29,950 nucleotides of DNA from a virus, in the IMG/VR virus record IMGVR_UViG_3300030419_003224, positions 7,383-37,332 of that record; one strand, given 5' to 3'. Shown here piece after piece: positions 930 to 21,659 of the stretch. Under the pieces are notes generated by a model. That model did not search any database and was not told the DNA's origin. It saw nothing but the letters and a program-made list of their open reading frames with translations. Numbering within the stretch: the first letter of the stretch is position 1; every line of letters begins with the position of its first letter. The position numbers and the translations under genes are program-made.

Positions 930-1396
930 TATTTATCCTTTAATTGTTCTTTTAATTGTTGATCATCTGAAATCCATTCTAAATCTGTATAGCTTTTTGT
1001 TAAATCCATTAAAAAAGTTTTTACATTATTTTCAACTAATTTCATATTATGATACTTTGTATATCTTTTATGCAATGAAGTATTTGCTGTCATTGAATAA
1101 ATTAATTCAATATTATATTTTTTTGCTAATTTAAATATTTCCGTAATACAGAGATTTAATCCTTTATGTATACTTTTTAGATTAGCAGTTTTATTTGCAA
1201 CAATCCATTCCATAAAACCAAATTTAGTCCCTGTACAACAATATAAACCACCAGCACATATAGGAATATTATTTTCTTCTACAATAATTCCATCAGGCGG
1301 TAAACATTTTTTTGGAACTATACCAAATTCATGTTGTTTCCACCAGTTAACTAAATAAGGATAGTCTTTATCCAGATTCCAGTTTCTAGCTTGCAT
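929..1396 (-). CDS. GNAT-family N-acetyltransferase-like protein
   Basis: This 155-residue protein has the layout of a short GNAT domain: an N-terminal helix (YPYLVNWWKQHEF), a first beta meander (DGIIVEENNIPICAGGLY), a central strand (GFMEWIVANKTA, about 82-93), a helical segment where the acetyl-CoA loop would be, and a late hydrophobic strand with YSMTANTSLHKRYTKYHNM, typical of beta5-helix4. The canonical Q/RxxGxG/A loop is not clear, so activity is uncertain. GNAT genes of this kind are frequent in head regions of marine phages; the substrate is unknown. It overlaps the upstream Hint gene by 11 nt and the downstream gene by 1 nt. Confidence 0.75.
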   Translation of the reverse strand: MQARNWNLDKDYPYLVNWWKQHEFGIVPKKCLPPDGIIVEENNIPICAGGLYCCTGTKFGFMEWIVANKTANLKSIHKGLNLCITEIFKLAKKYNIELIYSMTANTSLHKRYTKYHNMKLVENNVKTFLMDLTKSYTDLEWISDDQQLKEQLKDK

Positions 1397-2731: not shown

Positions 2732-4637
2732 TTGCTAACCCCATTATATGTGCATAGATCGCAGCTTTTTCTGGATCATTGATTAATTGATCTGGATCAA
2801 TGTCTAATGACTTAGCTATTTCTTTTAAGCAAGTATGCCATCTGACAAATGGTGCTAAAGAAGGATTAGATGCAGTTTGCATAAACGTCATCAACCTTTG
2901 TGAGCGTACTTCTTTTTGCATTAAAGAAGAAGTGCCTCGTGCTTTAACTTCCAAATCACCTTTTATTTTTGGAGTATCTTCATTAAATTGCATATTCCAA
3001 TGAAACAAGGATTCTCCTAGAGGTTTTAGTAAATAGTCATCAATATTTTTGATAACTGTTTTTATACTTAATGCTGCAGCTCCCATTAACATTGACATTC
3101 CTGCTGCAGTTCTTGTTGTTGATTGTACTCCTGTTGCTCCATGTGAGTATGAAGGAATACCTGTTGATTCATCTGCCAACTGTCTAAATTTATCAAACAT
3201 CATTAAATTTTCATTTGCTGTATTTGGAAACTTAACTCCATGTAATGCCTGACCTGGCTGACCACTTTGTCGTCTAAATATTTTACCAGGAAATACTTTC
3301 ATATCTTGACCTGGTACTAATAAAGTTTCATCAATATCAAAAACTAAATTTCCTGCTAATGCTAAATTATCAATTGCCATTCTAGCATGACCATTCATAA
3401 CTTGTTGTGAATCTTCCATATTTTCTGGAATACCTACTCCAAAAAACTGATATGGATTAACTTCATATGGAGAAACTAAATATGGTAATCTTGTTGGTGT
3501 AAATGGATTTTCAACCATTCGTAAAATATGCCCACCACAAATCCAAACATTAACACTAATAACTTCACTATCTGTCTCATATTTAATTCCATATTCATCA
3601 GCTACTTTCTTATCTAATAAACCCCAAAATTCTAAAACTTCATATCTATTTTTGTATAGCTGTGTAATATTTTCTCTGTCATAAAGTGAAGACTCATATC
3701 CTCTTGTTTGATAATTTGGTCCCATTTCAAGACAAGCTTTAATTGCTCCTTCTCTAAACATGGGTTTTCCAATTAAATTTTCTAATTGCTGCTTATTATA
3801 GGAATGCCTTTGAATAACATATTCACAATCTTTAATATTTGTTGCATTTGGATCTGGATAAAAATCCCAACATGAAACCGCCTCAATAGAAGGAGTTGAT
3901 TTTGTCTTTGCAACATAAATACTACTTTCATTTCCGTTTTCATCTGTAGCAGTATCGTAACTATGATATGTTTTAGTATCAGTAAATGGTCCTTTTAGAA
4001 TTCCTGTCCCTAATAATGCCATTTCAAAAAATACATGACGTAAAATTGTAATTGCTTGACTTTCTTCTAATTGATCATGTATAAGTTTTTCCATTTGTTC
4101 TGCAGCTAATCTTGCAGGTTCAATTTGTGGTTGACCTTGTGGTGCAGGACCTGTATCAAATCCTAATTCTTTATAGTCTTGAGCAATAGTTTGCATTAAA
4201 TCAGTTGCTGTTGCTCCAGGTTTTAATATTTGCCCATCTCCTTCAAACCCATAAATACTTTTAGTAATATCTTTTGCTGAAGGTTCTGTATCCTCACCAT
4301 TTGCTTTTGCAGTTTGCGGATTTAAATGGGCATAGTTATCACTATTCTCAGGTACCGTAGTTGGGGATACCCCAAGAGGAAATTTACCTTGAGAAAATAA
4401 GACTTCTATAATCTGTCCAAATGAAGCTAAAACTTTTGTTTTTGTGATTTTAACAAAAACTTTTGAGTTTTCATTAGCACGAAACATCATTTCAGGTCCA
4501 TATAGACCTCTATAGTTTCGGTAAGCCTTTAACCATCTTTTTTCGTCATATAATTTAGAAGTCTCAGATTGCTGAAACTTTTGTCTTATATAACCGACTA
4601 AAGGATTAACTTCCTCTGTATACGGTTTTTTAGCCAT
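2541..4637 (-). CDS. Portal protein
   Basis: This 698-residue protein forms the dodecameric ring at the head vertex through which DNA is packaged and ejected. Size, position after terL and the sequence style of large podovirus portals support the call: a Tyr/Arg/Trp-rich helical start (KRWLKAYRNYRGLYG), a clip/stem region with LPYLVSPYEVNPYQFFGVGIPENM, and the helical stretch IDNLALAGNLVFDIDE. The C-terminal 60 residues (about 636-698) are Gly/Ala/Pro/Thr low complexity, unlike the rest, and coincide with the overprinted gene at 2519-2731. The start has only a weak upstream purine stretch. Confidence 0.88.
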   Translation of the reverse strand: MAKKPYTEEVNPLVGYIRQKFQQSETSKLYDEKRWLKAYRNYRGLYGPEMMFRANENSKVFVKITKTKVLASFGQIIEVLFSQGKFPLGVSPTTVPENSDNYAHLNPQTAKANGEDTEPSAKDITKSIYGFEGDGQILKPGATATDLMQTIAQDYKELGFDTGPAPQGQPQIEPARLAAEQMEKLIHDQLEESQAITILRHVFFEMALLGTGILKGPFTDTKTYHSYDTATDENGNESSIYVAKTKSTPSIEAVSCWDFYPDPNATNIKDCEYVIQRHSYNKQQLENLIGKPMFREGAIKACLEMGPNYQTRGYESSLYDRENITQLYKNRYEVLEFWGLLDKKVADEYGIKYETDSEVISVNVWICGGHILRMVENPFTPTRLPYLVSPYEVNPYQFFGVGIPENMEDSQQVMNGHARMAIDNLALAGNLVFDIDETLLVPGQDMKVFPGKIFRRQSGQPGQALHGVKFPNTANENLMMFDKFRQLADESTGIPSYSHGATGVQSTTRTAAGMSMLMGAAALSIKTVIKNIDDYLLKPLGESLFHWNMQFNEDTPKIKGDLEVKARGTSSLMQKEVRSQRLMTFMQTASNPSLAPFVRWHTCLKEIAKSLDIDPDQLINDPEKAAIYAHIMGLANGNQNNTAAAGGQAEMGSPGQVPSGASPTDPTGAGGGNIGTGNASMPGETGFSATDPQLRGGN

Positions 4638-4649
4638 TAATTAAACCTA

Positions 4650-4841
4650 TTAATAATCTTTTTGATTTGCCATCTTAAAGATTGATGGATCAACTTTATC
4701 TTTTTTACCTGGTTTGTCTGCTGCAGAAGAAAAATCACCCTGCTTAATTTTCATATTAGGGTTTATTTCTAATTTATCATTTTTTCTTTTAGCAACATCA
4801 GGTGCAAGTTCACCATGTGCGTATCTTTTATTAATGTCCAT
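4650..4841 (-). CDS. Small protein, paralogue of the one at 5108-5335
   Basis: A 63-residue basic and polar protein without a recognised family. Its middle and C-terminus (KIKQGDFSSAADK... then SIFKMANQKDY) match the 75-residue protein two genes upstream (KVKQGEFGTAPDGK... then SLFKQADEKDY). The two therefore look like diverged duplicates sharing a KxKQGxF box and a terminal FKxAxxKDY box. A good AGGAG site precedes the ATG, and the gene ends 12 nt before the portal start. Function unknown; a short virion decoration or assembly adaptor is possible. Confidence 0.7.
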   Translation of the reverse strand: MDINKRYAHGELAPDVAKRKNDKLEINPNMKIKQGDFSSAADKPGKKDKVDPSIFKMANQKDY

Positions 4842-4853
4842 TATGTCTCCTTA

Positions 4854-5105
4854 TTAGTATTTAGGTTTGCTCGTAAAATTACTATAAACTTTTTTTATAC
4901 CACCTGCAATATTTGTAATTTTTTTCTTAACTGGATTAACTGTCATTTTATGTGCAGTTTTTATATCAGTCCATACAGGATGTTCATATTCTTTTTTTAA
5001 CATAGCTTTAACTTCTTTAGGATTTTCTAAAAACGGTTTAATTTTTTTAAAATTATCTAAAGCTTTTTTCTTATTTTCTATACGATTATTATTATTATTT
5101 GCCAT
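4854..5105 (-). CDS. Small lysine-rich protein of unknown function
   Basis: 83 residues, strongly basic, starting with MANNNNNRIENKKK. The Asn run comes from a repeated ATT/AAT tract at 5086-5100. Helical segments with PFLENPKEVKAML and a basic C-terminus suggest nucleic-acid or head-protein contact, but no family is recognised. It sits between the two paralogous small genes, 2 nt after the upstream stop and 12 nt before the next start, so it is co-translated with them. Confidence 0.65.
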   Translation of the reverse strand: MANNNNNRIENKKKALDNFKKIKPFLENPKEVKAMLKKEYEHPVWTDIKTAHKMTVNPVKKKITNIAGGIKKVYSNFTSKPKY

Positions 5106-5107
5106 AA

Positions 5108-5335
5108 TTAATAATCTTTTTCATCCGCTTGTTTAAACAAAGATTCTTGAACATGCTCAGATCCTGACTTCGTAGGATAATTATTATTTTGCAAAGCAGT
5201 TTCAGATTCACCTTTTCTAGGTGCATCTTGTGAGAAATCAATATTTTTTGACTCCCTGTTTGGCTGTTTGCCATCAGGTGCTGTACCGAATTCTCCTTGT
5301 TTAACTTTAGCTTTTGGATCAAATTTAGTTTCCAT
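5108..5335 (-). CDS. Small protein, paralogue of the one at 4650-4841
   Basis: 75 residues, polar and probably largely disordered. It shares the KxKQGxF box (near residues 10-18) and the C-terminal FKxAxxKDY box with the 63-residue protein encoded downstream, but carries a longer central insertion rich in Asn, Ser and Lys. The start overlaps the upstream stop (TAATG at 5337-5333). Another frame on the same strand (5095-5322) is open but lacks a plausible ribosome binding site and resembles no gene here. Confidence 0.7.
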   Translation of the reverse strand: METKFDPKAKVKQGEFGTAPDGKQPNRESKNIDFSQDAPRKGESETALQNNNYPTKSGSEHVQESLFKQADEKDY

Positions 5336-5496
5336 TATTCATCTCCTTCATCATCATAGTCGATATCATCATCTAAATCATTTTCCTGTCCTTTTTCTTC
5401 AAGTTCAGATAAGAGATCATCTTCTTGTGCATGAAGATCTCTGATTTCTTCAATAATATCTTCTATAGTTCTTTCCTTTTTCTTTTTTCTTGGCAT
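5335..5496 (-). CDS. Short acidic-tailed protein (53 aa)
   Basis: Read by hand: MPRKKKKERTIEDIIEEIRD, then a helical Glu/Leu segment and a C-terminal tail of almost only Asp, Glu, Gly and Tyr. The basic head, coiled helix and acidic tail make a dipolar small protein; similar tiny proteins sit next to terminase genes in many marine phages. An AGGAGAACCCCCC stretch lies upstream of the ATG, and the stop is coupled to the following gene through TAATG. Function unknown. Confidence 0.65.
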   Translation of the reverse strand: MPRKKKKERTIEDIIEEIRDLHAQEDDLLSELEEKGQENDLDDDIDYDDEGDE

Positions 5497-8301: not shown

Positions 8302-8330
8302 ATTATACATACTGATAACCATTTTGTCAA
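8302..8330 (-). promoter_or_regulatory. Sigma-70 promoter for the late (packaging/head) operon
   Basis: Read on the minus strand: -35 TTGACA (8330-8325), 17-bp spacer, -10 TATAAT (8307-8302), a perfect consensus match. It faces terS and everything downstream to the left edge. A GATTC (GANTC) site lies at 8296-8300, around the predicted start. Confidence 0.9.
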
Positions 8331-8370
8331 GCAATAATTTAGGGTGCGACAATCTGTCTTAATAATGTTC

Positions 8371-8399
8371 TTGACAAAATTGGATAGGGGGTGTATAAT
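8371..8399 (+). promoter_or_regulatory. Perfect sigma-70 promoter facing a gene-free region
   Basis: TTGACA (8371-8376), 17-bp spacer, TATAAT (8394-8399). It is divergent from the late promoter, with about 40 bp between the two -35 boxes. No coding sequence follows on the plus strand for about 1.5 kb; the next gene is on the opposite strand. Confidence 0.88.
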
Positions 8400-8405
8400 G
8401 TACAT

Positions 8406-8790
8406 AGGTACCCCCAGGGGGTCCTTATATCTATAGCACAGGTAAATTTACAAGTTGCCCCCTAGGGATATTGTCGGGAGATATTCAGAATATAGACCCC
8501 AAGATATAGCCCAGTATATGGTTAACAGGGAAACCTGAGATTTTCTGGTGTTGCTATATATATTATCTAGGTAAGGGGGGGTGGTCGCCTGCATACCCTA
8601 ATGTAAAACAAAGTTAATCTTTGTAGAAAATCAAAGTCTAGCTGTAATATTGTCAGGGGTTTCATAAAAATTTTTTAAAGGTTCCCAAAAAATCCCCCTA
8701 GTAAAATCTGGTTATCACTTGGGGGGAAATTGGGGATCGTAAATTTTTGTAGCTATTAAACCCTGATGTAAACCAAGTTTAATCAGGCAT
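8406..8790 (+). ncRNA. Candidate structured non-coding RNA or control region
   Basis: No plausible gene lies in 8400-8845 on either strand; only frames of about a dozen codons occur. The stretch starts at the predicted start point of the perfect promoter at 8371 and holds several self-complementary elements: an ACCCCC/GGGGGT palindrome near 8410-8422, ATATTC-A-GAATAT near 8482, ACAAAG/CTTTGT near 8608-8623, a TCCCCC/GGGGGA pair (about 8692-8727) and CCTGAT/ATCAGG with inner TAAAC/GTTTA (8762-8787). Two 25-nt repeats (8595-8619 and 8760-8784) match at 21 positions. It may be a regulatory RNA, a replication origin or a packaging site. Confidence 0.35.
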
Positions 8791-8824
8791 AAAAAAAAAG
8801 CCCCCGATTTTTAGTCAGGGGCTT
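8791..8824 (-). terminator. Rho-independent terminator of the gene at 8846-9640
   Basis: Read on the minus strand: AAGCCCC, 13-nt loop, GGGGCTT, then a run of T (the A tract at 8791-8799). It begins about 20 nt after the stop codon of the solitary minus-strand gene. In the plus direction the trailing sequence is only weakly T-rich, so it may partly stop transcripts from the 8371 promoter as well. Confidence 0.85.
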
Positions 8825-8845
8825 CCTTGTTTTATTGTTTAGTTA

Positions 8846-9640
8846 TTAAGCTATTTTTTTAGACTTGTCTTTTCCGCTTAGGCTTTGATTATCCATAGTT
8901 TTGATGAAATTATTTCTAATTAAATCATCATCTAGAATAAATTTAATACTTGCAATAGTCCCAACATCCTCATCAGTTATTTTTTCAATTAACTTTTGCG
9001 GGTTGCTTTTTGCAAGTTTATGTAAATTTTCAAGTATTGCTAAAGTATCATTTAACAATTTTGAAATATTTACAGCTTTACCTTTTTGGCGTGGTGTTAT
9101 GTTAGATGGATATTTAGTATTCCATACTTTGTCTATAATTCCAGTATGTACTGGAACTAATTCCACATCAGTATTTTTTACTTTTTTAGTACCGCCCTTA
9201 ACACCCTCTAACTTTTGTACTTTAAAAGGTACAGCTACCATAGATTTTACAAAAACTTGATTATCTTTATCTATGTTAAACTCGTCTTTAAAATCATTTA
9301 ACATTAAACCAAGTTTCACACCTCTAGACACCGCCATTTCAAAAGCTGAATTGATATTTTCTTTTCTATCATAATCAGCCAAATCATAACAATGCTGTCT
9401 TAAAAATTTGATTGTATTCCAATCTTTAAGTTTTGTTATGTTTTTATTATTCATCATTTCAGCAACAACACTTTTAATACTTGTTGCTAATTGCGGTACT
9501 ATGTTTGTCATTAAAGTGGTACTAATATTTTTAGCTTTAAATAGTACCTTTTTTAATGGCTCATTAGACTTTAATGATTGCATATAATTCTCATTTTCTT
9601 TTTGAGAATTGTCAGCTTTCATTTTTTCTAGTTTTTTCAT
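8846..9640 (-). CDS. Solitary unknown protein (264 aa) between late and early regions
   Basis: The start is set at the ATG at 9640, which has GAGGT five bases upstream; the frame extends to an ATG at 9697, but that coincides with the predicted transcription start. No family is recognised. The protein is Lys/Asn rich and helical at both ends, with a central part of mixed strands (NQVFVKSMVAVPFKVQKLEG, TDVELVPVHTGIIDKVWNTK) and a basic C-terminus. It has its own promoter and terminator and points against the early genes. This arrangement fits a regulator or an accessory (moron-like) gene, but nothing in the sequence proves either. Confidence 0.8.
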   Translation of the reverse strand: MKKLEKMKADNSQKENENYMQSLKSNEPLKKVLFKAKNISTTLMTNIVPQLATSIKSVVAEMMNNKNITKLKDWNTIKFLRQHCYDLADYDRKENINSAFEMAVSRGVKLGLMLNDFKDEFNIDKDNQVFVKSMVAVPFKVQKLEGVKGGTKKVKNTDVELVPVHTGIIDKVWNTKYPSNITPRQKGKAVNISKLLNDTLAILENLHKLAKSNPQKLIEKITDEDVGTIASIKFILDDDLIRNNFIKTMDNQSLSGKDKSKKIA

Positions 9641-9702
9641 TTTTACCTCATTATTGATTAAACCAATATTAAAATTAATATTTTTAAATTTAATCATAAT
9701 TA

Positions 9703-9732
9703 GTTATAGCATTATTTATATTTTAATTGCAA
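9703..9732 (-). promoter_or_regulatory. Promoter of the solitary 264-aa gene
   Basis: Minus strand: TTGCAA (9732-9727), 18-bp spacer, TATAAC (9708-9703). The predicted start point falls at about 9696-9697, giving a leader of roughly 56 nt before the ATG at 9640. Confidence 0.55.
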
Positions 9733-9758
9733 GTGATTTGATTATTTTTTTTAAATAA

Positions 9759-9772
9759 TTAACACGTGTTAA
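9759..9772. promoter_or_regulatory. Perfect 14-bp palindrome, candidate operator
   Basis: TTAACACGTGTTAA is fully self-complementary and lies between the divergent promoters at 9703-9732 (minus) and 9860-9888 (plus). It is a good size for a dimeric repressor or activator site. No regulator is assigned. Confidence 0.45.
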
Positions 9773-9810
9773 GTTGCGACATTACGCCACACCTATACAC
9801 CTATAAATTG

Positions 9811-9857
9811 TACAACCTATAATTGTGTGATATTTATACAACAATTTAGTGTGATAT
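9811..9857 (+). repeat. Two direct repeats upstream of the first early promoter
   Basis: TACAAC-(9 to 11 nt)-GTGTGATAT occurs at 9811-9833 and 9837-9857, 26 bp apart, and the second copy ends 2 bp before the -35 box of the promoter at 9860. ACCTATA also occurs three times in 9791-9821. The layout suggests tandem binding sites controlling early transcription. Confidence 0.45.
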
Positions 9858-9859
9858 AT

Positions 9860-9888
9860 TTGACACACACAACTGATAGTGGTATATT
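9860..9888 (+). promoter_or_regulatory. First early sigma-70 promoter
   Basis: TTGACA (9860-9865), 17-bp spacer, TATATT (9883-9888). It heads the whole plus-strand region, about 30 bp upstream of the first gene. Confidence 0.85.
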
Positions 9889-9926
9889 AAAAGAATAGTT
9901 AAAAAATAAAAAAGGGATAAAAAAAT

Positions 9927-10142
9927 ATGACTAGAATATTAATGGCGATTGCATTTGCAACAAGTTTTGGCTTGATGTTTTTAGGTCTAATTATTTTAAT
10001 ACATTTAGATTTATTTACAGGGCTTTTAATTTTTGCAATAGGTGGAATTTATTTTTTTAAATATTTGCCTAGTAATAATAAAGAATATTTAAAAGGACAT
10101 TCTTACAATGTAATAAGAATAAAACCAAAGACAAAAAAATGA
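9927..10142 (+). CDS. Small two-helix membrane protein (71 aa)
   Basis: First early gene. Residues about 4-26 and 28-46 are hydrophobic (MAIAFATSFGLMFLGLIILI, FTGLLIFAIGGIYFF), followed by a basic tail (KTKK), so two membrane helices with a cytoplasmic C-terminus are likely. GGGA upstream is the binding site. Its stop overlaps the start of the next tiny gene (ATGA). Role unknown; early phage membrane peptides often act in superinfection exclusion or host takeover, which is inference. Confidence 0.7.
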   Translation: MTRILMAIAFATSFGLMFLGLIILIHLDLFTGLLIFAIGGIYFFKYLPSNNKEYLKGHSYNVIRIKPKTKK

Positions 10143-10225
10143 TTGATATTAAATATAAAATATTTATTGTCATTATGTCGCTTATATATATAGCAGTAAT
10201 ATGGCAAGATTTAATGCTGTATTGA
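10139..10225 (+). CDS. Membrane micropeptide (28 aa)
   Basis: Read by hand: MIDIKYKIFIVIMSLIYIAV then eight more residues and TGA. The frame starts within the stop of the previous gene (ATGA overlap, implying coupling) and is one hydrophobic helix with a short charged N-terminus. No family recognised. Confidence 0.5.
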   Translation: MIDIKYKIFIVIMSLIYIAVIWQDLMLY

Positions 10226-10296
10226 CTTGACACAAAGAAAAGTAAGGCGTAAGGTTTGCATAGTATAAAAAAAAGAAAGGCAGAAAGCGAGGACAT

Positions 10297-10365
10297 ATGC
10301 AAACAACACTTGCGACATTTTTTTGGGCGACAATAGTTTTGTTATTAATAGCTACTTTCACTTAA
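10297..10365 (+). CDS. Membrane micropeptide (22 aa)
   Basis: Read by hand: MQTTLATFFWATIVLLLIAT then two residues and TAA. An excellent GAGGA site sits five bases upstream of the ATG, the main argument that this very short frame is translated. It is a single hydrophobic helix. Confidence 0.5.
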   Translation: MQTTLATFFWATIVLLLIATFT

Positions 10366-10381
10366 AAGAATAGGAAACGAA

Positions 10382-10433
10382 ATGGAAAACGACACGTGAA
10401 ACCCTCTATGCTTACGAGTATAGGGGGTTTTTT
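10382..10433 (+). terminator. Intrinsic terminator preceded by a five-codon leader frame
   Basis: Stem 10401-10411 (ACCCTCTATGC) pairs with 10418-10428 through 11 pairs (two G-T), loop TTACGA, then a T run to 10433. It closes the first tiny-gene cluster. A frame ATG-GAA-AAC-GAC-ACG-TGA (10382-10399) with AGGAAA upstream ends one base before the stem, so a ribosome stopping there would cover the hairpin's 5' arm, as in a leader-peptide attenuator. Confidence 0.8.
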
Positions 10434-10435
10434 AT

Positions 10436-10464
10436 TTGACATATCAAAATTCTTATGGTAGTAT
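10436..10464 (+). promoter_or_regulatory. Early sigma-70 promoter
   Basis: TTGACA (10436-10441), 17-bp spacer, TAGTAT (10459-10464). It lies directly after the terminator at 10401-10433 and restarts transcription for the gene at 10501. Confidence 0.8.
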
Positions 10465-10500
10465 TAAACATAATCAAAAAATAAACAAAGGGAAATAACA

Positions 10501-10707
10501 ATGATAACTAAAGAAGATATAGACAGAGAGATGAAACATATACGAGATAGTCAGAACAAAGATAGACTACATCAAGCTACCCTAAAAGATACTGAACTTG
10601 AAAAAGTTAAAGCTATCTTTAGAAATAGTAATGGACTTAATAATATTTCTGAAAGTGATATGAAAGTATTTTCAGATTTTATGTATAAGAAAGGGGGGAA
10701 TAATTAA
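10501..10707 (+). CDS. Unknown early protein (68 aa)
   Basis: Highly charged, probably all-helical protein (MITKEDIDREMKHIRDSQNK) with a C-terminal SESDMKVFSDFMYKKG segment. No family recognised. AAAGGGAAATAACA precedes the ATG, and the gene runs 2 nt short of the next start, so the pair is co-translated. Confidence 0.75.
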   Translation: MITKEDIDREMKHIRDSQNKDRLHQATLKDTELEKVKAIFRNSNGLNNISESDMKVFSDFMYKKGGNN

Positions 10708-10709
10708 AT

Positions 10710-11027
10710 ATGATAACATATAAAGATATAGACCCTTATATTACTAGAACTAAAAGAAAAAAATCTAATAAGCACCAAGCACAATTAGATAATATTTCTA
10801 AAAGGTTAAAGGATATAAAGAAAAAATATGAAACTAATCAAGATAAAATGAAACCTTACGAGGACAAACTTGAACCTCTTGAAAAAGCACAACGGAAATT
10901 AGATACTCAAATATTGAAACTTGAATTAGCAAAGGATAAAATACTTGAAAAATATGAATATGAAGTAAAGAATCCTGACTACGACCCCGAATACGAAGAA
11001 CACGCATATAATAATGGAATTATCTAG
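10710..11027 (+). CDS. Unknown early coiled-coil protein (105 aa)
   Basis: Residues about 20-85 are an uninterrupted Lys/Glu/Leu-rich helix with heptads (QLDNISKRLKDIKKKYE, LEKAQRKLDTQILKLELAK), followed by an acidic C-terminus (NPDYDPEYEEHAYNN). AAAGGGGGGAATAA upstream is a strong binding site. The coiled coil suggests oligomerisation; function unknown. Confidence 0.75.
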   Translation: MITYKDIDPYITRTKRKKSNKHQAQLDNISKRLKDIKKKYETNQDKMKPYEDKLEPLEKAQRKLDTQILKLELAKDKILEKYEYEVKNPDYDPEYEEHAYNNGII

Positions 11028-11107
11028 CTACCTATCTCCAACGACTCCCTTTATGTTTAAGTGGTAGCTAATAATGAAACCCTACTGATAGCAATATTGG
11101 TAGGGTT
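11025..11107 (+). promoter_or_regulatory. Two stem-loops in the leader of the alpha-CTD-like gene
   Basis: TAGCTACC (11025-11032) is the exact complement of GGTAGCTA (11063-11070), and AACCCTAC (11078-11085) of GTAGGGTT (11100-11107). Both stems are 8 bp and perfect, and no T run follows, so they are not ordinary terminators. The first overlaps the stop codon of the preceding gene. They may be mRNA processing or stability signals, or an attenuator. Confidence 0.5.
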
Positions 11108-11138
11108 AAACTAATGAAAGGAACAAGGAATAAAGAGT

Positions 11139-11531
11139 ATGAAATATATAGGATATTACAGAGAAAATGTACTAAATCAATTAGTATCTGGTTTAGATAT
11201 ATCAACACGGGCAAAGAATTGTCTTAGAAATTATAGTATTATCTATGTAGGTGATTTAGTTCAATTAAATGAAGCGGGATTATTGATGATGACTTCTCTC
11301 GGCAAAAAATGTCTTGGGGAGATTAGGTACGCATTAAATAGTCTGTCATTACACTTAAGTTTGCCTATACGAAAGAAAAGCGAAGACGATACTAATCTTG
11401 AAGATATACCTATTGGTATAGAAACAATCGGTATAAGAAATGAGATAAATAAAATTAATAAAAGATTAAATAGTATAGAACCAATTATTCAACATTATGT
11501 TTCTAAAAGTAAATTATTTGAAAAGGAGTAA
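11139..11531 (+). CDS. RNA polymerase alpha-CTD-like transcription factor
   Basis: Residues about 15-75 align with the C-terminal domain of bacterial RNA polymerase alpha: GLDISTRAKNCL, IIYVGDLVQLNE, LGKKCLGEIRYAL, SLHLSL, against E. coli DLELTVRSANCL, IHYIGDLVQRTE, LGKKSLTEIKDVL, GLSLGM. Five residues at DNA-contact positions correspond exactly: Arg24 (R265), Asn27 (N268), Cys28 (C269), Gly55 (G296), Lys57 (K298); Glu61 matches E302, and Ser299 is replaced by Cys58. There is no alpha N-terminal domain, so it cannot assemble as an alpha subunit. A 55-residue C-terminal tail ends in a coiled-helix-like segment. It probably binds UP-element DNA and/or sigma or activators and redirects host transcription. 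The GcrA-like gene follows 8 nt later. Confidence 0.85.
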   Translation: MKYIGYYRENVLNQLVSGLDISTRAKNCLRNYSIIYVGDLVQLNEAGLLMMTSLGKKCLGEIRYALNSLSLHLSLPIRKKSEDDTNLEDIPIGIETIGIRNEINKINKRLNSIEPIIQHYVSKSKLFEKE

Positions 11532-11539
11532 AAGGAACT

Positions 11540-11710
11540 ATGAAAAAACTAGAAGATTTAGAACAACACGAGTGTAGATATCCATTGGGTGAATTCAATG
11601 ACCCACCAGAATTCTTTTGTGCAGATAGAACCTATCGTCATTACTCTTATTGCCCAAAGCATTTAATGATATGTATTAAGCCAGATAATGAGAGTAAAAA
11701 AAAGACTTGA
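11540..11710 (+). CDS. GcrA-like mini-protein (56 aa)
   Basis: Read by hand. The core is ECRYPLGEFNDPPEFFCADR then a Tyr/His segment and YCPKH, with Cys12, Cys27, Cys38 and His41. This matches the signature of the GcrA family C-terminal domain (CRWP.G......FCG......YC..H), which in Caulobacter GcrA binds sigma-70. The N-terminal HTH that reads GAnTC sites in GcrA is missing, so this is a sigma-interaction-like module alone. It is coupled to the alpha-CTD-like gene (8-nt gap, AAAGGAA site), and its stop codon lies inside the next promoter's -35 box. GcrA being alphaproteobacterial, this is also a host clue. Confidence 0.8.
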   Translation: MKKLEDLEQHECRYPLGEFNDPPEFFCADRTYRHYSYCPKHLMICIKPDNESKKKT

Positions 11711-11735
11711 CATTTAAGTAGTATTCTGTTAAAAG
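11707..11735 (+). promoter_or_regulatory. Candidate promoter with weak -10
   Basis: TTGACA (11707-11712) overlaps the stop of the GcrA-like gene. At 17 bp the -10 would be TAAAAG, a poor match. The segment TTAAAAGAATAG is also found just after the -10 of the 9860 promoter, so the two share a start-region motif. Confidence 0.4.
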
Positions 11736-11754
11736 AATAGATAAGGAGAACATT

Positions 11755-12042
11755 ATGGCATTTTATGAAGATGAACACTTAAGAAAATATAAAAGGGTAA
11801 TGCGAAAACACGAAAGCGAATTTACATATATTCGTGAACACCCCGAAGAATATGAAACTAAATTTGATTGGTTTCAGGCATTAGATTATAAATGGCGATT
11901 GGTTAAAGAGGCACTGAATAACTATAAAGTTGATGATTCTATGCACGAAAAGACAACTATAACTATACCATTAGATGAATCTAAAATAGCAGAACAGCAA
12001 AAACATTTAGAAGAAAATCAACAAATATCTTATGATGAGTAA
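11755..12042 (+). CDS. Unknown early protein (95 aa)
   Basis: A charged, mostly helical protein rich in aromatic residues (EYETKFDWFQALDYKWRLVK), with a strand-like TTITIPLDES and a Gln/Glu-rich tail. No family recognised. ATAAGGAGAACATT gives a strong binding site, nearly identical to that of the gene at 12760. Its end overlaps the next membrane-protein gene. Confidence 0.75.
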   Translation: MAFYEDEHLRKYKRVMRKHESEFTYIREHPEEYETKFDWFQALDYKWRLVKEALNNYKVDDSMHEKTTITIPLDESKIAEQQKHLEENQQISYDE

Positions 12043-12202
12043 AGTATTTACTTGGTTGTTATTATGGTTGTTAGGACTATGGATAGCAACCAAGATTTTT
12101 TTCAAACGCAAATTAGATATGGATAGTACCGACCTTTATCTATTTGCTATGCTTGTTGTGTTTTTTATTTTTATAGGTTGGTTAAAACTAGCAGGAATTT
12201 AA
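12035..12202 (+). CDS. Small two-helix membrane protein (55 aa)
   Basis: Read by hand: MSKVFTWLLLWLLGLWIATK forms a first membrane helix, a charged loop (FFKRKLDMDS) follows, and LFAMLVVFFIFIGWLKLAGI is a second helix. An in-frame ATG three bases upstream is equally possible. The start overlaps the previous gene by 8 nt and the stop overlaps the next ATG (TAATG), the usual coupling in this operon. Function unknown. Confidence 0.65.
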   Translation: MSKVFTWLLLWLLGLWIATKIFFKRKLDMDSTDLYLFAMLVVFFIFIGWLKLAGI

Positions 12203-12366
12203 TGTCAATTTATAAAGCGTATGAAAAATGCAGAAAAAAAGCTAGATTAAAATGGAGAAAAAGTAGAAAAGGACAATGGTGGGACTATCAATACTACCAA
12301 CGACCCGAAGTAAAAGCTAGACGACATCAAAAATATATTGAAAGGAAGATAAAAGGTTATGTTTGA
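12202..12366 (+). CDS. Small strongly basic protein (54 aa)
   Basis: The start is the ATG in the TAATG overlap at 12202; a longer frame from 12178 would lie in the membrane-protein gene. Arg/Lys/Tyr/Trp dominate (KARLKWRKSRKGQWWDYQYY), giving a high predicted charge. DNA or RNA binding, or ribosome association, is possible; no family recognised. Confidence 0.65.
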   Translation: MSIYKAYEKCRKKARLKWRKSRKGQWWDYQYYQRPEVKARRHQKYIERKIKGYV

Positions 12367-12595
12367 ATTATTATTATTACTAATCTCACCATCAGAAATT
12401 AGTCCAGAAAAAGCTATCGTTAAATATGTAGCAAAGGAAAAGTTTGTGAAGTATGAGAAGTGTGAGAAGTATGTTCAAGAAAATGTATATGTAAAGAGTG
12501 GAGATGAAAAGTTTGAAGGAGTTTTCTATAAGGTAGATAAGAAAGAGTATCGTGTAGTTCTTACTTACTGCAAACCAGTTGACAAATCAAAGTAA
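12359..12595 (+). CDS. Small protein with hydrophobic start (78 aa)
   Basis: MFELLLLLIS at the N-terminus, then a Lys/Val/Tyr-rich beta-like body with two Cys (KYEKCEKY, VVLTYCKPV). The start could be a short signal sequence, but it lacks basic residues, so export is uncertain. It overlaps the previous gene by 8 nt. Its last codons contain the -35 box of the promoter at 12579. Confidence 0.65.
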   Translation: MFELLLLLISPSEISPEKAIVKYVAKEKFVKYEKCEKYVQENVYVKSGDEKFEGVFYKVDKKEYRVVLTYCKPVDKSK

Positions 12596-12607
12596 TTGTT
12601 ATATATT
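12579..12607 (+). promoter_or_regulatory. Sigma-70 promoter running into a terminator
   Basis: TTGACA (12579-12584), 17-bp spacer, TATATT (12602-12607). The sequence continues TTGACAAATCAA, shared with the promoter at 13209. The predicted start lies at the foot of the hairpin at 12612. Confidence 0.8.
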
Positions 12608-12611
12608 ATAA

Positions 12612-12643
12612 GGGCAATCAGCGAGAGTTGGTTGCCCTTTTTT
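12612..12643 (+). terminator. Intrinsic terminator 4 nt after a promoter
   Basis: GGGCAATC (12612-12619) pairs with GGTTGCCC (12630-12637), one G-T pair, loop of 10, then six T. It ends transcripts of the early genes upstream and would also end transcripts from the promoter at 12579 after about 30 nt. Confidence 0.85.
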
Positions 12644-12659
12644 GTTTATACAATCAAGG

Positions 12660-12727
12660 GGGGTGGTATCTGCTAATCTTAAGACTCGTATCACAGAGAA
12701 CATTAGTTGCGTGATAGATACTGCCCC
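12660..12727 (+). promoter_or_regulatory. 68-nt leader RNA with nested pseudoknot
   Basis: A 12-bp outer stem (12660-12671 with 12716-12727, two G-T pairs) encloses two crossing stems: 12672-12677 (GCTAAT) with 12702-12707 (ATTAGT), and 12690-12694 (ATCAC) with 12711-12715 (GTGAT). The inner stems abut the outer stem on opposite strands, allowing coaxial stacking. It ends 33 nt before the ATG at 12760. The compact, multi-stem form is like a riboswitch or a protein-binding leader; I cannot match it to a named class. Confidence 0.55.
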
Positions 12728-12759
12728 GAAGTTAAATCAATTAATATAAGGAGAACACA

Positions 12760-13185
12760 ATGCTAACAGCAAAAGCAGATGTAAGAGTAAAAGATTTTCC
12801 TAACTTTGTTGAAACTTTAATTGAGCAATACAAATCTGAAAAGTTTAGAGTTGGATTTGTTAAACTTAATAAAGAGAAACGAGTAGGAAGATTTGATTTA
12901 ATACATAGAGTTCGTTGGAAACAATCTGATGGCTCAATGTATAAACGCAAAGGTAAAGCAAGAACAACTGATGAAGATGAATACTTACTTGCCTTTGACT
13001 TGGATAAGAAAGCACCTAGAAATATTTCTTATGCTCGTATGAAGTGGTTGGGTGTAGGTAAAAAGTTCTATAAAATCAATCATTTAAAGACCAAAGTTAA
13101 AGTAATAGAGTTCCCTAAAGTAGAGTTTGATGTCAAGAAAGATTTACTTGATGGCAAGTGGGATATACTAGAGAATATAAAATGA
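12760..13185 (+). CDS. Unknown early protein (141 aa) behind the structured leader
   Basis: Starts MLTAKADVRVKDFPNFVETL with AAGGAG eight bases upstream. The body is basic, of mixed helices and strands: FRVGFVKLNKEKRVGRFDL, a linker with KRKGKART, then YLLAFDLDKKAPRNISYARM and KFYKINHLKTKVKVIEFP. The last part looks like a beta barrel or OB/SH3-like fold. No family is recognised, and nucleic-acid binding is only suggested by the charge. It stands as a single-gene unit between the structured leader and the next promoter. Confidence 0.8.
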   Translation: MLTAKADVRVKDFPNFVETLIEQYKSEKFRVGFVKLNKEKRVGRFDLIHRVRWKQSDGSMYKRKGKARTTDEDEYLLAFDLDKKAPRNISYARMKWLGVGKKFYKINHLKTKVKVIEFPKVEFDVKKDLLDGKWDILENIK

Positions 13186-13208
13186 GTGAGTGGTGTCAGA
13201 CAATCGGC

Positions 13209-13237
13209 TTGACAAATCAATAACAACCTGCTATATT
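13209..13237 (+). promoter_or_regulatory. Sigma-70 promoter running into a terminator (second copy)
   Basis: TTGACA (13209-13214), 17-bp spacer, TATATT (13232-13237), with the same TTGACAAATCAA start and TATATTATA end as the promoter at 12579. Confidence 0.8.
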
Positions 13238-13240
13238 ATA

Positions 13241-13276
13241 GACATCATCTAGTTATCTAGGTGATGTCTTTTTTTT
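13241..13276 (+). terminator. Intrinsic terminator 3 nt after a promoter
   Basis: GACATCATCTAG (13241-13252) pairs with CTAGGTGATGTC (13257-13268): 12 pairs with one G-T, loop TTAT, then eight T. It is among the strongest terminators in the window, and the predicted start point of the adjacent promoter falls in its first bases. Confidence 0.88.
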
Positions 13277-13300
13277 AACCAACAAGGAAAGGAGTACTCA

Positions 13301-14290
13301 ATGGAAAAGAAGAAAGATATAAGACTTAATAAAGACTTTAGAAATCTTTACATAAAAGATTTCAGAAGATTTTTAGAGAGTCAAACAAACAACCCTAAAT
13401 ATCAAGCGTTTCTTGAGTCAAGAGAAAACTGTCAGACAAAGATTGATGACGCTTTTAAAACAGCAACTGCTGTTGTTGAAAGAAGATTTAATCCTACTGA
13501 TGTAGCTGACTTAAGACGATTGCAAAATAAATATACAACTGTTGATTCAGTAGGAAAAGATAGTTGTTTTTATATGGCAGTTGTTGATAACAAAGGGAAA
13601 CCTGTTAATACCACAGATGAATACAATGATGAAGTTCAAAAGAAGAAACACTTTGACTTTAGATTGTTTGGTAATCTTAATGGTAGCGAATACAATAGGC
13701 AAAAAGATTTTGCTTATGCTTGGTATCGTGAGCCAATGAAAGCTAATGGATTAAATCCAGATTGCAATATAGAACATAGTGGCAATCAGAATAATCCAAA
13801 TTTATCTCAACACCAAAATGCTAACAGCGATTGGCTTGAAGGTAATAAAGGTAGTAGTACAAATTATGCTGATAAGTGGGAAAATGATTTCGCTTTAGAC
13901 ATAATTGGAACAGGTGGTTGTCGGTCAAGGGCTATCCCTTGTACTGAATCAGAGTTTGCAACATTTGAAATGATGTTAATTGCAAAACAAGCAGTAATCA
14001 GAACACATCAAGAGTGGATTGGTTCTATTGTTAGAGCAGTTAATATAGTTGGCGACTCAATCAAAGCTATGAAATACAAGTCGGAAGTTGACGCACTTGC
14101 CAAAGAATATCAATGGGAACCTAGTGTTTCTATTAATAAAACTTTTGGTACTGCATTAACTATCAACCCTGCTAGTGTTAAGAATATGACTAATGAAATA
14201 CTTGGTTATAATACTCAACCTACAAGGGAAGAGAAAATTAAACTTGCAAGAGTAGCATTGAAAGAATACCAACAGAAATCTGTTGCATAA
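13301..14290 (+). CDS. Large unknown early protein (329 aa)
   Basis: The longest early protein before the replication genes, with an AAAGGAG site. It is polar and helical at both ends (KIDDAFKTATAVVERRFNPT near 50-70; KIKLARVALKEYQQK at the end). The middle is Asn/Gln/Ser rich (about 145-195), followed by LDIIGTGGCRSRAIPCTESE, FEMMLIAKQAVIRTHQEWIG and IVRAVNIVGDSIKAM. No family or catalytic motif is recognised. Strong transcription signals in front and a terminator behind suggest abundant, independently controlled expression, possibly a ssDNA-binding or host-takeover protein. Confidence 0.8.
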   Translation: MEKKKDIRLNKDFRNLYIKDFRRFLESQTNNPKYQAFLESRENCQTKIDDAFKTATAVVERRFNPTDVADLRRLQNKYTTVDSVGKDSCFYMAVVDNKGKPVNTTDEYNDEVQKKKHFDFRLFGNLNGSEYNRQKDFAYAWYREPMKANGLNPDCNIEHSGNQNNPNLSQHQNANSDWLEGNKGSSTNYADKWENDFALDIIGTGGCRSRAIPCTESEFATFEMMLIAKQAVIRTHQEWIGSIVRAVNIVGDSIKAMKYKSEVDALAKEYQWEPSVSINKTFGTALTINPASVKNMTNEILGYNTQPTREEKIKLARVALKEYQQKSVA

Positions 14291-14298
14291 ATTTATAG

Positions 14299-14325
14299 GG
14301 GTAGGCGAGCAATCGCCTATCCTTT
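14299..14325 (+). terminator. Hairpin terminator after the 329-aa gene
   Basis: GGGTAGGCGA (14299-14308) pairs with TCGCCTATCC (14313-14322), one G-T, with tetraloop GCAA, then TTT and an AT-rich stretch. The T run is short, so it may be leaky or a 3'-end stabiliser. Confidence 0.65.
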
Positions 14326-14347
14326 AATTAACTAAAAGGAATTTACT

Positions 14348-14605
14348 ATGAGAAAAATTAGAAAAGTAAGAAGTAATCACAATAATTTATTTAATTATTT
14401 TATTTATGATGAGAAATGTTTAAGTAAAAAATATGTAAGTAAGTGTGTATTATTTTTAGATAATTTAAGTAAGAAAAAAGTAGGGAGAAAGAAAAAAGAT
14501 AATTCAAAAAATGGAGATATGTTTACTAATTGTAGAAGTTGTAATACGGATTTAAGTGGGTGGCGAAGTAATAAAGATACAAGATATTGTGTAGATTGTT
14601 TTTAA
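14348..14605 (+). CDS. Small zinc-ribbon-like protein (85 aa)
   Basis: Basic N-terminus and centre (KVGRKKKDNSKN), then a C-terminal NCRSCNTDLSG...RYCVDC unit with Cys62, Cys65, Cys81 and Cys84: a CxxC-15-CxxC zinc ribbon/knuckle. Two more Cys lie at 24 and 33. Such small zinc proteins usually bind nucleic acid or a partner protein. ACTAAAAGGAATTTACT supplies a binding site. A minus-strand promoter at 14645-14673 points into this gene. Confidence 0.7.
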   Translation: MRKIRKVRSNHNNLFNYFIYDEKCLSKKYVSKCVLFLDNLSKKKVGRKKKDNSKNGDMFTNCRSCNTDLSGWRSNKDTRYCVDCF

Positions 14606-14644
14606 TATGAATAATACTATATACCCCCCTGCAACGGACAGGAT

Positions 14645-14673
14645 AGCATAACATATTTTTATGGATTTGTCAA
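14645..14673 (-). promoter_or_regulatory. Antisense promoter candidate
   Basis: Minus strand: TTGACA (14673-14668), 17-bp spacer, TATGCT (14650-14645). It shares the TTGACAAATC start with the promoters at 12579, 13209 and 22355, but its -10 is weaker. It would transcribe antisense to the zinc-ribbon gene. Confidence 0.45.
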
Positions 14674-14694
14674 GTTAAAAAGAAAGGATACCTT

Positions 14695-15039
14695 ATGAGT
14701 TGGAACACAGCAAACCACAATACAGAAAAATATAGAGAAGAAGAACCTGCATATAAGAAGTTAGCCAAAGCAGTATTGAATAGGGCATTGTTAGATATAG
14801 TAGGGTATCATGGAAACACAGGAAGTATTAGTAGGTCAGAAAAAGATTTGATTAAAACAAAAGCTAAAATATTTTTAAAAAGAAATAATAAAATGCTAGA
14901 AGTATGGTGTGATATGGCAGACACAGACGCAGGACATATAGTAGATTTTGTAAATGATTTGACATACCATATAAATTGTGGTAATCTAAAAAAAATTACA
15001 CCACATATAGCAGTGGATAGATTTCTCAAAAAGTTTTAA
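14695..15039 (+). CDS. Unknown protein (114 aa), helical
   Basis: MSWNTANHNTEKYREEEPAY, then KKLAKAVLNRALLDIVG and MLEVWCDMADTDAGHIVDFV. The combination 'AVL..AL.DI' with a later 'W.CD.A..D...' recalls a small helical family seen in phage early regions, of unknown role. AAGAAAGGATACCTT precedes the ATG. The gene ends 2 nt before the next start. Confidence 0.7.
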   Translation: MSWNTANHNTEKYREEEPAYKKLAKAVLNRALLDIVGYHGNTGSISRSEKDLIKTKAKIFLKRNNKMLEVWCDMADTDAGHIVDFVNDLTYHINCGNLKKITPHIAVDRFLKKF

Positions 15040-19160: not shown

Positions 19161-19626
19161 TTTAGTTGTTGTACCATTGACACTTAAAAAAGCAAATGAA
19201 TTTGTTACTAAATATCACACGCACAATAAAAGAGCACGAGGCTGTAAATTTTGTATTGGTGTTGAAAGTAATGGAATGTTAGAAGCTGTAGCAATAATTG
19301 GAAGACCTGTGGCTAGAAAACTAGATGATGGATTTACTGTCGAAATTTTAAGATTATGTACTAAACAAACTGGTATAAAAAATCTATGTAGTATATTGTA
19401 TTCTCGTAGTTGGAGATTGTGGAAGCTTATGGGGGGTAAGCGTATTGTAACTTATACGTTAGAAGAGGAAAATGGTGCTAGTTTAAAAGCAAGTGGATTT
19501 AAAATTACAGGTGAGGCACGTGCATTAAAAAAATCACATAGAGGTTGTAGATGGACAAATAGAAAAGGAAGAGTATGGCAAAAAATTCAAGAGCAAAAAA
19601 GAATAAGATGGGAATATAAAATATGA
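19150..19626 (+). CDS. XF1762-like protein (GNAT-related)
   Basis: 158 residues: VVPLTLKKANEFVTKYHTHN, then FCIGVESNGMLEAVAIIGRP, VARKLDDGFTVEILRLCT, CSILYSRSWRLWKLMGGKRI, TYTLEEENGASLKASGFKIT. The order 'PL.L..AN.FV..HH.H', 'VAI.GRPVAR..DDG', 'E..R.CT' and 'Y.L..E.G.SLRA.G' is the signature of the XF1762 family, which shares the GNAT fold. The target is unknown. It sits between helicase and DNA polymerase, overlapping the first by 11 nt and the second by 4 nt, so it is made with the replisome. Confidence 0.82.
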   Translation: MMIDLVVVPLTLKKANEFVTKYHTHNKRARGCKFCIGVESNGMLEAVAIIGRPVARKLDDGFTVEILRLCTKQTGIKNLCSILYSRSWRLWKLMGGKRIVTYTLEEENGASLKASGFKITGEARALKKSHRGCRWTNRKGRVWQKIQEQKRIRWEYKI

Positions 19627-21659
19627 TATCAACGATTGATGTAGAAACTTCCTATCAAAAGACAGAGAATGGTGGCATGGATCCATTACCATTTAATCCT
19701 AAAAATATTTTAGTAAGTGTAGGAATTAATGATGAGTATTACTTTACTAATCATAGTGAAAGAGTTGATGAAGGTTGCTACTATAAGATTCAATCTATAT
19801 TAGATAAAACAAAATTATTAATTGGTCATAATATTAAGTTTGATTTAACTTGGCTATTAGAAGCAGGATTTAAATACAATGGTAGAGTTTATGATACTAT
19901 GATAGGTGAGTATGTTTTAAATCGTGGCATAAGAAAAAGTTTAACATTAGATATGTGCTGTAAGCGTAGACGAATAGGCTCAAAAGACAAGGAAATACAG
20001 GAGTTTATGGATAGGGGAGTATCCTTTGAGAATATACCAGTAAGAGTTGTAGAAGAATATGGTAGAATTGATGTAGCTATTACTAGAAAACTTTTTGATT
20101 CTCAAATGGATGATTTAAGATTGGAAAAAAATAAAGGATTATTATCTACAATTAAAATGATGAATGAATTTTTAATTGTATTAACAGATATGGAAAGAAA
20201 TGGAATTCATATTAGTTTAGATAGTTTATCACAGGTTGAGAGAATCTATCGTGCTGAGTTTGAACATCTTAAACAGAAGATTGATAAGATTGTATATGAA
20301 AAGATGGGAGATACAAGAATTAATTTAGCAAGTCCTGAACAATTATCATGGCTTATCTATTCTAAAAAACCAAAGGATAAAGAAACGTGGGCAAAGCTAT
20401 TTAATATTGGTATAGATAAACAAACAGGAAAAAATAAAAAGAGACCACAATATTCTCGTATAAAATTTAGAGAGTTAGTTAGAAATAATACAGAGGTTCT
20501 ACATAAAACAACTGCCAATCAATGTATCGATTGTAAAGGCAAGGGTGTAATTAAAAAAATGAAAGTTGATGGCACGCCTTATAAAAAATATAGTAAGTGT
20601 AGTGGATGTGATGGAGATGGATATACTTATACACAACTTGCTAAACTTGCAGGGTTTAATCAAAGACCTAGAAGTGTGTATGATATAGCTGAAGCTGGAT
20701 TTAGAACAGATAGAATAACTTTAAATAAAATTGTAGGTGAAGCTGAGGGTGAACTGAAAGAATTTATAGATGCAATTATAAGACATAATGCTATTGATAC
20801 TTATTTACATACATTTGTTGCTGGTATTAAATCATTTACAAATGAAAATAATATGCTACATCCTAAATTTATGCAAGCTGTAACAGCAACGGCAAGGTTA
20901 TCAAGTAGAGATCCAAACTTTCAGAATCAACCAAGAGGTGGGACATTTCCTATTCGTAAAGTTGTCACATCTAGATTTGACAATGGTCGTATACTTGAGG
21001 TAGACTTCGCACAATTAGAATTTAGAACGGCTGTATTTTTAGCACAAGATAAACAAGGTATGGAAGATATAAAAAATAAAATAGATGTTCATCAATACAC
21101 TGCAGATATTATTGGTGTGTCTAGACAAGATGCAAAGGCACATACCTTTAAACCTTTATATGGTGGAACAACAGGTACTGAAGAAGAAAAAAGATATTAT
21201 AAAAAATTTGCAGAAAAGTATAAGGATATAACTGAATGGCATGGAAGATTACAAACAGAAGCTATTAAATATAAACAAATTAAATTACCTACAGGTAGAG
21301 AGTATGCGTTCCCATATGCAGAGAGAATGCCTTGGGGTGGATCTAGTTATAGTACACAAATAAAAAATTATCCTGTACAAGGTTTTGCTACAGCAGACAT
21401 TGTACCTTTAGCTTGTATAAAAATATATAAATTAATGAAAGAACAAAAGGTAAAGAGTTTACTTATAAACACAGTACACGATTCAATTATAGCTGATGTT
21501 TACCCTGGTGAAGAATCCGTAATGAGTAAGATATTTAGACAGGGTACGGGTTCTGTAATACCTGCATTGAAAGAGTATTATGGAATTAATTTTAATGTTC
21601 CTCTTGACACAGAGGTCAAGATAGGATATAATTGGTTAGAAATGAAGGAGGAAAAATGA
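19623..21659 (+). CDS. Family A DNA polymerase with inserted DnaJ-type zinc finger
   Basis: 678 residues. 3'-5' exonuclease: Asp6/Glu8 (IDVETS), HNIKFDLTWLL (69-79), YGRIDVAIT (146-154). Then at 301-333 a DnaJ-like unit CIDCKGKG...CSGCDGDG with Cys301, Cys304, Cys326, Cys329. Polymerase motifs: A, LEVDFAQLEFRTA with Asp461; B, RQDAKAHTFKPLYGG (Arg501, Lys505, Phe509, Tyr513); C, TVHDSIIA with His619/Asp620. All catalytic residues are intact. The zinc insert between exonuclease and palm is the known hallmark of HMO-2011-type marine phages. Phe at the O-helix discriminator position predicts discrimination against dideoxynucleotides. Confidence 0.95.
   Translation: MISTIDVETSYQKTENGGMDPLPFNPKNILVSVGINDEYYFTNHSERVDEGCYYKIQSILDKTKLLIGHNIKFDLTWLLEAGFKYNGRVYDTMIGEYVLNRGIRKSLTLDMCCKRRRIGSKDKEIQEFMDRGVSFENIPVRVVEEYGRIDVAITRKLFDSQMDDLRLEKNKGLLSTIKMMNEFLIVLTDMERNGIHISLDSLSQVERIYRAEFEHLKQKIDKIVYEKMGDTRINLASPEQLSWLIYSKKPKDKETWAKLFNIGIDKQTGKNKKRPQYSRIKFRELVRNNTEVLHKTTANQCIDCKGKGVIKKMKVDGTPYKKYSKCSGCDGDGYTYTQLAKLAGFNQRPRSVYDIAEAGFRTDRITLNKIVGEAEGELKEFIDAIIRHNAIDTYLHTFVAGIKSFTNENNMLHPKFMQAVTATARLSSRDPNFQNQPRGGTFPIRKVVTSRFDNGRILEVDFAQLEFRTAVFLAQDKQGMEDIKNKIDVHQYTADIIGVSRQDAKAHTFKPLYGGTTGTEEEKRYYKKFAEKYKDITEWHGRLQTEAIKYKQIKLPTGREYAFPYAERMPWGGSSYSTQIKNYPVQGFATADIVPLACIKIYKLMKEQKVKSLLINTVHDSIIADVYPGEESVMSKIFRQGTGSVIPALKEYYGINFNVPLDTEVKIGYNWLEMKEEK

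Follow-up and report, generated by a model that had tools for sequence, protein, structure and literature searches.

The locus described here lies in a stretch of 29,950 nucleotides (positions 7,383 to 37,332 of the IMG/VR record IMGVR_UViG_3300030419_003224), hereafter called the window, which represents 80% of a virus record of 37,332 bases. Two small genes follow each other within what is presumed to be one early operon, running from a host-type promoter to a terminator-like hairpin (Table 1). The first encodes a free C-terminal domain of the RNA polymerase alpha subunit (alpha-CTD), the second the stand-alone sigma-interacting domain (SID) of GcrA, here termed mini-GcrA (MKKLEDLEQHECRYPLGEFNDPPEFFCADRTYRHYSYCPKHLMICIKPDNESKKKT). 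The alpha-CTD stop codon (11529-11531) and the start of mini-GcrA are separated by 8 nt, and translation of the two genes is likely coupled. The hairpins in front of the alpha-CTD gene are devoid of a U-run and might represent an attenuator or an RNA-processing site.

Table 1. Features of the mini-GcrA locus in the window and genes next to mini-GcrA in related phage contigs
Sequence	Feature	Positions	Strand	Basis or remark
Window	Terminator-like hairpin between operon and preceding unit	10398..10431	+	
Window	Host-type promoter TTGACA-N17(TG)-TAGTAT, presumed operon start	10436..10464	+	Pattern scan
Window	Two small ORFs, 68 and 105 aa, second coiled-coil-like	10501..11027	+	Same presumed operon
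Window	Two RNA hairpins directly upstream of alpha-CTD start	11025-11070 and 11078-11107	+	Fold z = -2.57
Window	Free RNA polymerase alpha-CTD with C-terminal extension, 130 aa	11139..11531	+	PF03118, fold match, model, alignment
Window	AAGGAG, Shine-Dalgarno-like site of mini-GcrA	11523..11528	+	Sequence; inside last alpha-CTD codons
Window	Mini-GcrA (stand-alone GcrA SID), 56 aa	11540..11710	+	Pfam, PDB sequence and fold matches
Window	Small ORFs of 95, 56, about 54 and 78 aa	11755..12595	+	Same presumed operon
Window	Terminator-like hairpin, presumed operon end	12610..12639	+	
3300020478_001293 (near-identical to window)	58-aa ORF between alpha-CTD and mini-GcrA			Alpha-CTD 100% identical
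L036, L099	214-aa protein with sigma70 region 4	4695-5339 (L036), 3353-3997 (L099)		E = 1.2e-13; 4-nt overlap with mini-GcrA gene
L010, L101	83-aa ORF without assigned function			Neighbour of mini-GcrA
L247	87-aa ORF without assigned function			Neighbour of mini-GcrA
L095	DUF2958			Neighbour of mini-GcrA
L061, L096	Mini-GcrA without adjacent partner			
L103	Mini-GcrA at contig edge			

GcrA (PF07750) is the single Pfam match of mini-GcrA (E = 1.7e-7, 32.2 bits compared to a curated cut-off of 26.9), and it spans profile positions 102-153 of 155, i.e., only the last third of the profile. Searching the PDB by sequence, the only matches with E < 1 were the GcrA chains 5yix_B and 7ye1_G, which originate from the complex of the GcrA SID with sigma region 2 and from the GcrA-polymerase complex, respectively. 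An AlphaFold model built on 26 aligned sequences (pLDDT 84) resulted in exactly three Foldseek matches among 350,542 chains, 7ye2_G, 7ye1_G and 5yix_B, all of them Caulobacter GcrA SIDs. The structural comparison with these chains yielded VIA Z values of 6.7/5.8/5.8 over 46-54 residues, which alone are middling; the identification carries weight because sequence and structure point to the same domain. The earlier note on this DNA had recognized the GcrA sigma-interacting region, and it had given the reading frame, the residues C12, C27, C38 and H41 and the distance to the alpha-CTD gene, all of which are exact in the sequence. The three cysteines and the histidine, together with PLG, FC and YC, are invariant across divergent mini-GcrA carriers. 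The pattern is not due to chance. Among relatives dN is below dS (dN/dS about 0.3-0.5), showing that mini-GcrA behaves like a real, selected gene. An unrelated zinc-knuckle family, which the note had named as the alternative, was rejected, since Pfam, NCBIfam and the PDB searches by sequence and fold gave no other significant match. The NCBIfam equivalog for full-length GcrA, NF050816, was scored at 21.1 bits and its cut-off of 280 was not reached, as is expected for a lone SID; mini-GcrA thus does not qualify as a complete GcrA regulator. Its relationship to the GcrA family is nevertheless solid, and it is a SID-only member of this family.

The N-terminal helix-turn-helix (HTH) domain that reads methylated DNA is absent from mini-GcrA, as had also been proposed from the sequence. 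The open frame around the gene comprises 62 codons and is closed a few codons upstream, leaving no space for an HTH, and its absence is therefore not an artefact of a wrongly assigned start. A separately encoded HTH in the same phage was rejected as well, since no second GcrA piece was found elsewhere in the whole 37 kb record. Compared to Caulobacter GcrA, a sigma70 cofactor (PF07750; 5yix, 7ye1, 7ye2), mini-GcrA has the SID sequence, the C/C/C/H spacing and the predicted fold in common, but it is devoid of the methyl-adenine-reading HTH and the linker (56 aa compared to about 160-200) and carries CRYPLG and HxxxC where GcrA has CKWPIG and YAFQP.

Relatives were gathered by searches with the SID, with TerL and with an anchor gene at position 12760. 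In about eight related phage lineages (the window, L010/L101, L103, L247, L036/L099, L061, L095 and L096), the equivalent position is taken by a SID-only GcrA gene of 54-68 aa, in every case without HTH. A match of the first scan in L003 was discarded as a GC-rich, spurious match of 15 residues, and a broad SID alignment contained no stretch conserved enough for scanning. For 42 anchor loci the upstream sequence reached 2.2 kb or more, and 6 of these loci carry the SID; mini-GcrA is missing from the close isolate relative HTVC033P and is therefore dispensable. Mini-GcrA belongs to the accessory genes of an early region that is hypervariable, and its neighbours are exchangeable. This patchy occurrence, and the clustering of mini-GcrA with full-length phage and prophage GcrA, could be read as a decaying, functionless remnant of a phage GcrA after loss of the HTH. 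We regard this as highly improbable in view of the identical start-to-end architecture in about eight lineages, the purifying selection, the intact metal ligands, the good Shine-Dalgarno site and an independent second SID-only case in L229. The SID-only GcrA family in pelagiphages, for which the open papers searched contained no description, appears to be undescribed.

Full-length GcrA homologues of 145-235 aa are known from isolate phages (phiCbK, Milano, OLIVR4, Atu_ph08, Pam5, Bajun, Mwe-JY13, Ssp-JY42, RHph_Y1_10), and these mostly match the whole profile; for Milano the C-terminal part alone scores. These proteins, such as phiCbK gp222 (PMC3556154), are phage-encoded like mini-GcrA, and many phage and prophage contigs share its CRYP-type SID, but in contrast to mini-GcrA they possess the N-terminal part. 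Outside the mini-GcrA lineages, all complete phage GcrAs examined retain this part except that of L229, which is an independent SID-only case: on this unrelated GC-rich phage contig (6300-7060) the gene for a 59-aa SID shares 4 nt with an MT-A70 adenine methyltransferase gene. Mini-GcrA shares with phage and prophage GcrA the CRYPLG motif and a cysteine after the last ligand, and it groups with them, apart from host GcrA, in a SID tree that is weak (50 residues) and for which the sequences were gathered with a DNA pattern favouring the CRYP type. Within these limits, a direct origin of the SID from the host is disfavoured.

The neighbouring gene product, described in the earlier note as alpha-CTD-like, matches RNA_pol_A_CTD (PF03118, E = 7.2e-14, 51.7 bits compared to a cut-off of 23.8) with residues 10-75 of its 130 residues, which confirms the assignment. 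Domain searches did not find the alpha-NTD, which is needed for core assembly, in this protein. The alignment shows equivalents of R265, N268, C269, G296, K298 and E302 and a cysteine in place of S299 (E. coli numbering); the DNA-binding 265 determinant, with most of its DNA-contact residues, is thus present. The best fold match is 9zum, a Caulobacter alpha-CTD on AT-rich DNA (rmsd 1.0), and the C-terminal extension is predicted by the model as one 36-residue helix (94-129). Free alpha-CTDs, several with helical extensions, were also observed in at least five kinds of unrelated phage contig (L184, L185, L186, L188, L189; about 3760-4370). They likewise are without alpha-NTD, but unlike that of the window none lies beside a GcrA SID; free alpha-CTD proteins may reflect a strategy common among phages that has received little description.

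The pairing of both genes had been proposed as a conserved and possibly undescribed takeover system. The analysis does not support a two-component cap that is conserved: of 96 related records searched, 1, the near-identical contig, contains the alpha-CTD, i.e., it occurs in one lineage only, and the other mini-GcrA carriers are without an alpha-CTD partner. What stands of the proposal is the GcrA SID without HTH and the genuine alpha-CTD next to it, both in one early operon of a phage that uses host-type promoters. Sigma region 4 scored above the cut-off in 2 of 83 related records (L036/L099), in a protein with an HTH-like N-terminal part. In the near-identical contig (L004:4402-4578), the first nine residues of the inserted ORF are the same as those of mini-GcrA, and the insertion may represent strain variation or an assembly effect.

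In the related records searched, the alpha-CTD and the above-cut-off sigma region 4 proteins are confined to contigs carrying mini-GcrA and are each encoded upstream of it. This co-occurrence amounts to a lead rather than to proof, because it concerns two lineages, was noticed post hoc and involves fragmentary contigs. A looser version of a simultaneous capping of sigma region 2 by mini-GcrA and of sigma region 4 or DNA by the alpha-CTD might be kept alive by the sigma region 4 lineage. Accordingly, mini-GcrA could be one half of a split activator or two-part cap, in which the SID sits on sigma region 2 and the operon neighbour contacts DNA in trans, redirecting the holoenzyme. The tight arrangement (8-nt gap; 4-nt overlap in L036/L099), the likely coupled translation and the capability of the alpha-CTD, by homology, to bind DNA speak for such a division of labour. 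It is distinctly unlikely, however, as such a neighbour is missing from most mini-GcrA carriers, an extra ORF separates both genes in the near-identical contig and there is no sign that mini-GcrA and its neighbour touch physically. The more elaborate idea of a modular operon of polymerase fragments, in which the SID on sigma region 2 and an exchangeable upstream DNA-binding domain (alpha-CTD or sigma region 4) rebuild a split GcrA to steer the host polymerase, is very doubtful.

The phage's own setting bears on how mini-GcrA might act. TerL is closest to that of Pelagibacter phage HTVC033P, and next to those of HMO-2011-type phages infecting Roseobacter, SAR11 and SAR116; members of the HMO-2011-type group with low GC are regarded as pelagiphages (PMC9038755). 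The virus is an HMO-2011-type marine phage near HTVC033P, probably with a SAR11 host. The window contains 10 TTGACA-N17-TANNNT sites compared to 0.71 expected, a number reached in 0 of 100 shuffles; most of them fall in the early region, and terminator-like hairpins lie between the units. These ten putative promoters are located within 8302-14987 and at 21604 and include a divergent pair, 8302(-)/8371(+). Putative phage promoters at 9860 and 12579 flank that of the operon at 10436. A T7-like RNA polymerase was not found in a search that was run without positive control on a record of 37 kb (complete relatives: about 53 kb). The host-type promoters and the lack of a T7-like polymerase suggest that the phage depends on the host sigma70 holoenzyme. 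On the host side, full-length GcrA was found in 5 of 7 partial genomes of the SAR11 group (Pelagibacteraceae; E about 1e-39 to 1e-41), and its SID aligns with mini-GcrA without gaps. GcrA of SAR11 is a plausible target of mini-GcrA.

In Caulobacter the GcrA SID binds sigma region 2, and the HTH reads methylated DNA (PMC7403470; PDB 5yix). The simplest outcome for mini-GcrA, to which we assign an even chance, is that it docks on sigma region 2 and displaces host GcrA. Early in infection the phage would make a free-standing GcrA SID, in which C12, C27, C38 and H41 would hold one metal ion and which would dock at the GcrA site of the host's primary sigma factor, in region 2. Being devoid of the methyl-DNA reader, it would fill the GcrA site but not GcrA promoters. 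Upon displacement of host GcrA, methylation-dependent host promoters would lose polymerase and phage promoters of the TTGACA/TATAAT type would keep it. The alpha-CTD from the same mRNA would most likely be a second, independent or loosely cooperating modulator, acting on AT-rich upstream DNA or sigma region 4, and not an obligate partner. This reading is supported by the SID sequence and fold, the lack of an HTH in about eight lineages, the invariant ligands, the selection, the full-length GcrA of SAR11, the enriched host-type promoters and, for the alpha-CTD, the retained DNA-contact residues. The grouping of the SID with phage and prophage and not with host GcrA counts weakly against it. Moreover, its affinity for sigma is not assured, because the tryptophan of CKWPIG is replaced by tyrosine and the YAFQP stretch is altered in the phage proteins. 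Finally, GcrA is described as dispensable in Caulobacter under some conditions (PMC3885167), and displacing it may then matter little.

The main rival is a positive cofactor resembling Crl or RbpA: the bare SID would stabilise sigma region 2 on core polymerase and boost phage promoters, competition with GcrA being incidental. Small activators are known to use sigma region 2 as a docking hub (PMC6917491), Crl needs no contact with DNA for activation (PMC6917491, PMC7403470), and strong sigma70-type promoters are abundant in the window. However, GcrA is described as working via an additional DNA-contacting domain (PMC6917491), and activation by a bare SID is a conjecture; we consider this reading rather unlikely. 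Crl, RbpA and GrgA are small sigma region 2-binding activators, and mini-GcrA is likewise small and expected on sigma region 2, but they belong to other protein families and are cellular, whereas mini-GcrA is phage-encoded. Similarly, AsiA, Gp39 and P7 are phage proteins, as is mini-GcrA, which is also expected to retune the host holoenzyme; they target sigma region 4 or the flap, in contrast to the sigma region 2 expected for mini-GcrA.

Should the bare SID indeed displace host GcrA, an alphaproteobacterial cell-cycle regulator would have a naturally occurring dominant-negative. The SID would also be a phage factor that works via the GcrA site of sigma region 2, and the papers searched describe no phage SID for this site. 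The setting would be phages of SAR11, which is among the most abundant bacteria of the ocean. Furthermore, mini-GcrA makes the effect of the SID alone on polymerase directly testable, and it might serve as a minimal tool of 54-56 aa to block Caulobacter GcrA without mutating it.

Some further observations concern the window as a whole. GANTC is rarer than expected, with 54 sites compared to 84 +/- 9 in dinucleotide shuffles, as if methylation or cutting of the CcrM type were avoided. A 377-aa protein encoded at 1386-2519 (-) contains a glycine-rich stretch followed by a domain that by eye looks like the Hint/intein type (CFSPETQITMSD...). The DNA polymerase encoded at 19623-21659 contains two CxxCxGxG-like motifs (CIDCKGKG, CSGCDGDG), a DnaJ-like insertion that is typical of HMO-2011-type phages.
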